From the NCBI RefSeq assembly GCF_017310035.1, contig NZ_CP022296.1:1488001-1552000 (forward strand): a stretch of 64,000 nucleotides of DNA, read 5' to 3'. Of this stretch, positions 46,033-48,066 are shown piece after piece (within the stretch, counting starts at the first letter, position 1; each line of letters opens with the position of its first letter). Origin of the DNA: Nocardioides sp. S5. Its GTDB lineage: Bacteria; Actinomycetota; Actinomycetes; Propionibacteriales; Nocardioidaceae. The notes below the pieces were generated by a model that was not told the origin of the DNA, did no database searches, and worked only from the letters and a program-made list of their open reading frames with translations. The position numbers and the translations under genes were made by a program.

Positions 46033-46158
46033 CGGCGCGCCGTTCGGCGCACCAGCCCGTCCCGGTCGTTCCCGACCGCGTGACCGGGCGACCACCATCC
46101 GCCGCAGCTGGGCCGCTCGTCCGCTCGCTGCAGGCGACGCAACGTGCGAAGGATCCAC

Positions 46159-48066
46159 GTGACCGAGACTCCCCCTGCTGCCACCCCTGCCGACTCGCAG
46201 GACGCGGCACCCGACGCCGCGACGAAGCCCGCCCGGAAGGCGTCGAAGTCCGGCGGCCTCGGCTCGATGCTGCTCGCCGACCTCAAGTCGATGGCCGGCG
46301 GAATGGGCATCGCCGGTGCCGGCTCGATGAAGAAGGCGCAGCTGGTCGAGGCCATCAAGGCAGCCCAGTCCCCGGCAGCCCAGTCCCCGGCCGCATCGGC
46401 CGAGAAGCAGGACCAGAAGCAGGCCTCGCAGCAGGCGCGGGCGTCGGCCCAGCCGGAGGCCGTCCAGTCCGAGGCCCCGGCCCGCACCGAGGAGCCGGCC
46501 CCGCAGACGACCGTGCGCACGCGCACGCGCAAGCAGCGCGCCGCGGAGCAGGCTGCCGAGGCCGCGGAGCAGAAGCAGCCCGAGCAGAAGCAGCCCGAGC
46601 AGAAGCAGCCCGAGCAGCCCGCGCAGAAGCAGAAACAGCAGGACAAGCAGGACCAGAAGACCGACAAGCAGAACGACAAGCAGCAGGGGCAGAAGCAGGG
46701 CTCCCAGAAGCAGGGCAACCAGCAGGGCCAGCGCAACCAGGAGCGCCTGCAGGACCAGCGCCAGGAGCAGCGGAACCAGGAGCAGCGCGGCCAGGACCAG
46801 CGCGAGCAGCGGGCGCAGGAGCAGCGGGCGCAGGACCGCAACCAGGACCGCCAGCAGGACCAGCGCCAGCAGGAGCAGGACGACGACGAGGACGGCGAGG
46901 GCGGCAGCCGTCGCAACCGCCGCCGTCGCGGCCGCGACCGTACGACGCCGCGCGCCGGTGGCAACCGCAGCGAGCCCGACACCACGATCCTCGAGGACGA
47001 CGTCCTGGTGCCGGCCGCCGGCATCCTTGACGTGCTCGACAACTGCGCCTTCGTGCGCACCTCGGGCTACCTGCCCGGACCCGAGGACGTCTACCTGTCG
47101 CTGTCGATGGTGCGCAAGTACCACCTGCGCCGCGGTGACGCCGTGGTCGGCCAGGTCCGCCAGCCGCGTGAGGGGGAGCGTCGGGAGAAGTTCAACCCGA
47201 TGGTCCGCATCGACAGCATCAACGGCACCGAGGCCGAGGGCGCCAAGGAGCGCCCGGAGTTCTCCGACGCCGTGCCGGTGCACCCGCACCAGCGGCTGCG
47301 CCTGGCCACCGACGACGCCAACCCCACCGGCAAGGTCATCGACATCGCCGCGCCGGTGGGCAAGGGCCAGCGCGGCCTCATCCTCACCCCGCCGCGCACG
47401 GGTGCGACGTCCCTGCTGCAGTCCATCGCGCAGGCCGTGACCACCAACAACCCCGAGTGCCACGTGATGGTGGTGCTCGTCGACGCGCGGCCCGAGGAGG
47501 TCACCGACTTCCAGCGCGCCGTCAAGGGCGAGGTCGTCGCCTCGACCTTCGACCGGCAGCCGGCCGACCACACCCTGGTCGCCGAGCTCGCCATCGAGCG
47601 GGCCAAGCGGCTCGTCGAGCTCGGCCACGACGTGGTCGTGCTGCTGGACTCCCTCACCCGCCTGGGCCGTGCCTACAACCTGGCCGCGCCGGCCAACGGC
47701 CGCGTGCTCGCGGGCATCGTCGACGCCTCCGCGGTGCACCCCACCAAGGAGTTCTTCGGCGCCGCGCGCAAGATCGAGGACGCCGGCTCGCTGACCGTGC
47801 TGGCGACGGTCGCGGTGGGCACCGGGTCGGCCACGGACGAGTTCTTCCTCGAGGAGATCGCGGGCACCGAGAACTGGGAGCTCGCGCTCAGCGCCGAGCG
47901 TGCGGCCCGGGGCATCGTCCCGGCCGTCGACGTCGTCGCGTCCGGGACGCGGCACGAGGAGAAGCTCCTCGCGCCCGCCGAGGGAGCCGTCGTCGGCGAC
48001 ATCCGCAAGCAGCTCGCGGCCGCCGACTCGTCACAGGCCGTCAGCAAGGTCATCGGCGCCCGCTGA
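46159..48066 (+). CDS. rho: Rho-family transcription terminator with catalytic residues replaced (possible pseudo-ATPase)
   Basis: A 635-residue Rho homologue in the conserved thrB-rho-rpmE-prfA setting. An actinobacterial-style N-terminal extension is rich in Gln, Lys, Arg and Glu (about 120-260). It is followed by the primary RNA-binding domain (AAGILDVLDNCAFVRTSGYLPGPEDVYLSLSMVR) and an AAA-like RecA core. Walker B (VVVLLDSLTRLGRAYN) is intact. However, the Walker A motif reads PPRTGATS, so Ala416 replaces the ATP-binding lysine. DARPEEVT puts Ala443 in place of the catalytic glutamate. ELALSAERAARG puts Ala579 at the arginine-finger position. The Q-loop GGVD is GIVD, and the C-terminus stops about 40 residues early. 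GTG 46159 follows GAAGGA. It may bind RNA and ring up, but hydrolysis is doubtful. The codons are ordinary GCG/GCC. Confidence 0.9.
   Translation: MTETPPAATPADSQDAAPDAATKPARKASKSGGLGSMLLADLKSMAGGMGIAGAGSMKKAQLVEAIKAAQSPAAQSPAASAEKQDQKQASQQARASAQPEAVQSEAPARTEEPAPQTTVRTRTRKQRAAEQAAEAAEQKQPEQKQPEQKQPEQPAQKQKQQDKQDQKTDKQNDKQQGQKQGSQKQGNQQGQRNQERLQDQRQEQRNQEQRGQDQREQRAQEQRAQDRNQDRQQDQRQQEQDDDEDGEGGSRRNRRRRGRDRTTPRAGGNRSEPDTTILEDDVLVPAAGILDVLDNCAFVRTSGYLPGPEDVYLSLSMVRKYHLRRGDAVVGQVRQPREGERREKFNPMVRIDSINGTEAEGAKERPEFSDAVPVHPHQRLRLATDDANPTGKVIDIAAPVGKGQRGLILTPPRTGATSLLQSIAQAVTTNNPECHVMVVLVDARPEEVTDFQRAVKGEVVASTFDRQPADHTLVAELAIERAKRLVELGHDVVVLLDSLTRLGRAYNLAAPANGRVLAGIVDASAVHPTKEFFGAARKIEDAGSLTVLATVAVGTGSATDEFFLEEIAGTENWELALSAERAARGIVPAVDVVASGTRHEEKLLAPAEGAVVGDIRKQLAAADSSQAVSKVIGAR
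46567..46620 (+). repeat. Three 15-bp tandem repeats in the rho N-terminal extension
   Basis: GAGCAGAAGCAGCCC occurs three times in direct succession (46567-46611), followed by a shortened copy, encoding repeated E-Q-K-Q-P. It sits in the low-complexity, RNA- or condensate-prone N-terminal segment of Rho and may vary in number between strains. Confidence 0.85.

Follow-up and report, generated by a model that had tools for sequence, protein, structure and literature searches.

The window, by which we mean the whole 64,000-nucleotide stretch of Nocardioides sp. S5 DNA that was analyzed, carries on its plus strand, as do all the features below, a rho coding sequence of 635 amino acids (46159..48066), which the sequence, profile searches and alignments identify as the sole Rho of the genome. 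A Shine-Dalgarno-like GAAGGA (46148..46153) lies 5 bases ahead of the GTG start. The Rho_N domain (residues 34-71; 46258..46371; Pfam PF07498) is separated by a low-complexity stretch rich in Gln, Lys, Glu and Arg (46372..47001) from the Rho_RNA_bind domain (residues 287-360; 47017..47238; Pfam PF07497), i.e., the primary RNA site, the contacts of which are mostly conserved. Each Pfam match was over its cut-off (Rho_N, 34.9 bits; Rho_RNA_bind, 86.9; ATP-synt_ab, 75.3), so that the RNA-binding domain described in the earlier note is indeed present; on the NCBIfam profile TIGR00767 the protein scored 479.7 bits, under the curated cut-off of 509.45. Among solved structures, the nearest in sequence is the Mycobacterium tuberculosis Rho, 7oqh (E 6.7e-149). 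A similar disordered insert is carried by intact Nocardioides Rhos (e.g., L004, L005); measured over the last 200 residues ahead of the RNA-binding domain, its Gln content is 25% in the ‘double losers’, i.e., genomes lacking both K184 and E211, and 17% in intact species.

Residues are numbered here as in Escherichia coli Rho, read off alignments of the window protein to 7oqh and to E. coli Rho. PMC8828861 names the catalytic glutamate E211, the arginine valve R212, the Walker A lysine K184 and the base-stacking phenylalanine F355, and places the arginine finger at M. tuberculosis R541, which after subtraction of the offset of 175 is E. coli R366. In the window Rho, the Walker A sequence PPKAGKT has become PPRTGATS (47389..47412), with K184 replaced by Ala416 (47404-47406), and the catalytic motif DERPEEV has become DARPEEV, with E211 replaced by Ala443 (47485..47487); both losses had been claimed earlier and were borne out by these alignments, as was the reading of the Q-loop (residues 519-522; 47713..47724) as GIVD where intact Rho has GGVD. 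K181 is Arg413. Retained are T185 (Thr417), the arginine valve R212 (Arg444), directly after the lost glutamate, the Walker B aspartate D265 (Asp497; 47647..47649), also in agreement with the earlier account, and the arginine finger R366 (Arg598; 47950..47952). A third substitution, Ala579, had been assigned to an ‘arginine-finger block’; the loss is real, but the label is not, since Ala579 corresponds to R347. Those three sites were moreover an incomplete list, as the alignments of the window Rho also showed loss of K336 (Ala568; 47860-47862) and G339 (Glu571; 47869-47871), both within 47860..47871, and of R353 (Gly585; 47911-47913) and F355 (Val587; 47917-47919), which together with R347 (47893-47895) span 47893..47919. 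The C-terminus is shortened, although by about 24 rather than the suggested 40 residues, since 37 residues and the stop codon follow R366 (47953..48066), compared to about 61 residues in intact congeners. In three genomes of related species, G104, G121 and G137 (L181, L180 and L173), 8 residues follow the arginine finger, and K184 and E211 are kept.

The neighboring genes, whose names were read from sequence, are the same in relatives: among the rho loci fetched from 198 genomes, thrB was found in 192 and prfA in 168. Judged from the alignments and gene order, the window protein is a Rho orthologue by descent and position, and not a stray paralogue, as had been argued. The genome is a single contig of 4.75 Mb (99.15% complete), and besides rho its search with TIGR00767 retrieved only the F1-ATPase subunits atpD and atpA, which lie about 11 and 8 kb further downstream and matched with 33 and 19 bits. 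The suggestion that this protein assembles with another Rho does not fit, because the genome holds no other Rho, intact or otherwise.

Elsewhere in the genus, second core matches were seen in G083, G165, G173 and G200 only, and those of G165 and G200 look like a single gene split across contigs or frames; in G200 the Rho (L067, L092) is apparently divided over two frames near profile position 350, by frameshift or sequencing error. Second matches of 53-65 bits occurred in G128, G142, G200, G020 and G144; in G128 and G200 they were rejected as a second Rho, as the frames, with intact Walker A, read like flagellar export ATPases. A core match was present in 213 of 215 Nocardioides genomes. Outright loss of rho in the other two, G120 and G157, was not accepted, and the region is probably missing from these assemblies, since a close prfA match is lacking as well (the best is 40% identical in G120, and there is none in G157). 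Outside the genus, some relatives have two rho genes (G246, contig C4, at 191838 and 202653; G254; G298), about 10 kb apart where they share a contig; L420 and L434, both on JAUJOE010000003.1, each keep all twelve checked residues. In families f15 and f17 of the same class, a number of large genomes match rho a second time, with E <= 1e-30.

Distribution and order of the residue losses

Rho was read from 198 Nocardioides genomes, of which 191 could be scored at all key sites, the 7 with incomplete residues being dropped. All twelve checked motor positions were intact in 60 of the 191; K184 was lost in 65, E211 in 43, and both in 42. When the genomes were sorted into rate classes, 60 were intact, 64 kept K184 and E211 with other positions lost (a number that wrongly includes G210, whose end is missing), 25 had lost one of the two, and 42 had lost both; the two sets of 191 differ in that the rate-class set contains G170 and G210 and lacks G056 and G131, and the loss-count set the reverse. 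K184 was replaced by A (26 genomes), R (24), T (11), V (2), G (1) or I (1), and E211 by T (21), A (20), V (1) or Q (1). Both losses, K184 to A/T/V and E211 to A/T, were also read in named strains such as N. furvisabuli, N. lacusdianchii, N. ganghwensis, N. hwasunensis, N. alpinus and N. astragali; the 354-residue core of the window Rho is identical in the first two. The losses were strictly nested for K184, as K336 was changed in 65/65 scored genomes without it, and nearly so for E211, as K184 was lost in 42 of the 43 without E211 (the exception is G033). In other genera, K336 was changed in all 8 genomes that had lost K184, with E211 kept.

The losses were placed on a tree built from thrC, thrB, prfA and prmC (215 of 218 taxa, 1294 columns), rooted with two members of the family; G101, G143 and G150 were dropped for too little neighbor sequence. 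With branches below 0.95 support collapsed, regain disallowed and G144 left out for suspected contamination, the counts, which are minima, were at least 17 independent losses of K184, 5 of E211, 22 of K336, 18 of G339, 19 of R347 and 13 of R353. Changes of K184 to anything other than K or R, in 43 genomes, trace to 6 events. These counts might fall if degenerate alleles had spread by horizontal transfer, although the replacing letters differ among lineages. From the nesting across species, the order would be that motor coupling (K336 and its neighbors) became dispensable first, followed by ATP binding through K184 and then by catalysis through E211.

Beyond Nocardioides, degenerate Rhos were found in genera g5, g19 and g20 of the family among 45 loci read, 13 of which had been picked for low scores. 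Five genomes of g19 and g20 (G232, G259, G289, G315 and G233) have K184 replaced by R and R366 by N, H or L; R347 or R353 is altered too, whereas E211 is kept, a different order of loss. In other families of the order, all 90 sampled genomes reached E <= 1.4e-183, by profile score and not by residues, as did 221 of 223 genomes of the class; the exceptions were G324 (970 contigs, 9.5e-37) and G377 (120 contigs, 3.4e-173). Within the genus, the best score of any genome without K184 was 5.7e-178. Judged by score, the Rhos of the 90 genomes thus look like those in which K184 and E211 are kept; since G132, with G339 and R347 changed, still scored 1.3e-183, scores outside the family speak for those two residues and not for every coupling residue.

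RNA site, ATP pocket and selection

Of the 11 scored primary-site positions, 9 were unchanged in 42/42 double losers, and D60 differed in 2. The remaining position, F62, which is Tyr in intact Nocardioides, was Cys in 32 of the 42, the window included, a replacement that could weaken RNA binding. Intact Rhos share 224 invariant positions. Of those in the ATPase domain, the positions at which most of the 42 double losers differ number 18/41 in the ATP pocket, the Q- and R-loops and coupling region 334-353, against 23/136 elsewhere (p=6.5e-4), the site classes being our own and partly after PMC8828861. Positions of the Q- and R-loops had diverged in double losers, the window included. The 354-residue core was modelled with AlphaFold2 from 30 aligned sequences (the window and the loci of relatives). 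The model had a mean pLDDT of 86.5 and matched M. tuberculosis Rho best (TM 0.91, 61% identity); it is silent on ATP and on oligomers, and the fold is intact in it.

In the clade of the window (35 genomes, 253 pairs), the RNA-binding and ATPase domains had dN/dS values of 0.069 and 0.156, next to 0.157 for prfA and 0.182 for thrB. Another 5 double losers form a separate group, which on the tree shares its loss event with the 35-genome clade and gave similar values (RNA-binding domain 0.053, ATPase domain 0.175, prfA 0.138). The shift in constraint was examined on non-overlapping pairs, 15 double-loss and 28 intact, which are not strictly independent. Median dN/dS of the RNA-binding domain was 0.038 in double-loss versus 0.196 in intact pairs (p=0.0014), and that of the ATPase domain 0.162 versus 0.097 (p=0.028), absolute values that are not fully comparable, given the greater mean divergence of the intact pairs; the difference between the two domains also separated double-loss from intact pairs (p=6e-7). 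Pooled over double-loss pairs, the ATPase domain had a dN/dS of 0.246 and thrB 0.236.

Rates were also expressed per neighbor-gene distance. For the ATPase and RNA-binding domains, respectively, these were 0.32 and 0.49 in intact species (21 pairs), 1.19 and 0.66 where K184 and E211 were kept and others lost (25 pairs), 1.73 and 0.76 where one of the two was lost (10 pairs), and 1.26 and 0.24 where both were lost (20 pairs). Thus, a faster ATPase domain is general among degenerate Rhos, whereas it is in the double losers, 35 of the 42 of which are one clade, that the RNA-binding domain is slower. Under neutrality, about 200 stop codons would be expected across the 15 double-loss pairs; none was found inside the matched stretch of the 42 double losers in the genus core matches. 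A TGA counted for G136 in some searches, absent from the genus core search, was read as the shortened end of its gene. These results document that rho is not decaying in the window clade and is under purifying selection there.

Interpretation and comparison with known Rho

The best reading of these observations, and one that we regard as fairly probable, is that the window protein is a motor-less Rho, a pseudo-ATPase kept as an RNA-binding protein. Without the Walker A lysine, which grips the ATP phosphates, without the catalytic glutamate and the base-stacking phenylalanine, and with residues of coupling region 336-353 gone as well, it would be incapable of ATP hydrolysis and translocation. 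As a passive ring or oligomer, it would use its OB domains, perhaps helped by the disordered stretch, to bind single-stranded RNA, either nascent or released, and once bound may mask, stabilize or cap transcripts. The earlier proposal of a non-hydrolysing, RNA-binding Rho thereby stands as the best-supported reading of the sequence, in which the ATP-site residues are gone, nearly all of the scored primary RNA-site positions are conserved and selection is purifying; its partner-Rho variant, as noted above, falls away. The pattern fits stepwise loss of the motor with RNA binding retained and not simple decay, because selection persists and there is no clear loss of the gene. Given that T185, R212, D265 and R366 are conserved, a nucleotide may still be bound in the pocket or at the interface, and a structural nucleotide or a salt bridge between subunits is conceivable. 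Some activity may also be left where K184 became R, in 24 of its 65 losses; E. coli Rho with Gln at K181 or K184 retains part of its ATPase. More tentatively, and short of conviction, we propose that dozens of Nocardioides species have undergone repeated, nested conversion of a ring motor into a selected, motor-less RNA-binding protein, with termination proceeding without any Rho motor.

Ranked second, behind the passive RNA-binding ring, and on balance unlikely, is a translocation-free termination factor, in which an open ring held on RNA polymerase (RNAP) through NusG and RNAP contacts would trap nascent RNA and inactivate the polymerase, leaving release to other factors. Such a route, namely recruitment of an open Rho ring to RNAP, capture of RNA at the primary site and inactivation of RNAP, is described for Rho in PMC11829017, and the mostly kept primary RNA site is consistent with it. 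Likewise, 30 genomes with degenerate Rho share one consensus of the NusG KOW domain with 29 that have intact Rho (a pattern search missed NusG in the one remaining genome of 30 intact ones), and all nine differing columns lie outside KOW, which speaks against an altered NusG partner. However, the KOW domain also binds ribosomal protein S10, so that its conservation is weak evidence for termination. Nor did the C-skew of three neighbor genes follow the loss classes, with means, over 156 genomes and with phylogeny ignored, of 0.015 in intact species, 0.036 where K184 and E211 were kept and others lost, 0.018 where one was lost and 0.033 where both were lost. In rho-less Bacilli, according to PMC13323073, the base bias of the coding strand is lost.

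A vestigial Rho, in which termination by Rho has become dispensable in the family and slow decay leaves constraint on fold and solubility only, we consider quite unlikely. The graded series from intact to double loss, the three genomes with 8 residues past R366, and the RNA-binding domain that is not slower where one of K184 and E211 is lost (0.76 versus 0.49) would all accord with it; furthermore, according to PMC4499133, about 8% of species have no Rho, and some bacteria, e.g., Staphylococcus aureus, can do without it. Against it, all but two genomes of the genus have a match, these two also lacking a close prfA match, dN/dS is well under 1 in both domains, and the RNA-binding domain of double losers evolves more slowly than that of intact species.

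That the ATPase still works by means of a rearranged active site, for instance with Arg413 (K181 to R) substituting for K184, is likewise quite unlikely. This reading would draw on the Arg found at K181 in 35 of the 42 double losers and on T185, R212, D265 and R366, unchanged in 42/42; nonetheless, K181 is still Lys in 6 of the 42, the window Rho is also without E211, K336, R353 and F355 and has changed Q- and R-loop positions, and the double-loss ATPase domain evolves about four times faster than the intact one per marker distance (1.26 versus 0.32). Finally, a sequencing or assembly artefact or contamination, for which one may cite the degenerate fragment of G144 (L082; 420 contigs), possibly contamination or transfer as its nearest tree neighbor, G041, is intact, is already contradicted and of negligible probability, as the same residues recur across many separately deposited isolate assemblies (K184 to A/T/V together with E211 to A/T in 35/191 genomes, the window’s included) and the window genome is complete in one contig.

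Rho is generally taken as an ATP-driven motor, and an ATP-independent role for it is an open question in the field. Natural, repeatedly evolved candidates for motor-less Rhos beside intact ones in a single genus offer ready-made experiments between sister species, and the order of loss would show which parts of Rho become dispensable first; for annotation, a Rho call is no proof of Rho-dependent termination. Among the titles and abstract openings of the open-licence papers listed by our searches, we found no report of an ATPase-dead Rho or of work on Rho in Nocardioides. A 2013 survey of Rho conservation by D'Heygere reportedly found that most Rho sequences retain the canonical ATPase motifs.

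Compared to the Rhos of M. tuberculosis (7oqh) and E. coli, the window Rho is alike in domain order, fold, most primary RNA-site positions, the Walker B aspartate, and the arginine valve and finger, whereas it differs in having lost the Walker A lysine, the catalytic glutamate, the base-stacking phenylalanine, K336, R347 and R353, in its altered Q- and R-loop positions and in its shorter C-terminus. With the intact Nocardioides Rhos (L004, L005) it shares the genus, the gene neighbors and the similar disordered insert, but all twelve checked motor positions are present in the latter, as in 60/191 genomes. Pseudoenzymes are known among P-loop ATPases that are catalytically dead and keep a binding role, and the window Rho resembles them in that its catalytic residues are lost, while the fold and the ligand-binding part are still under selection.
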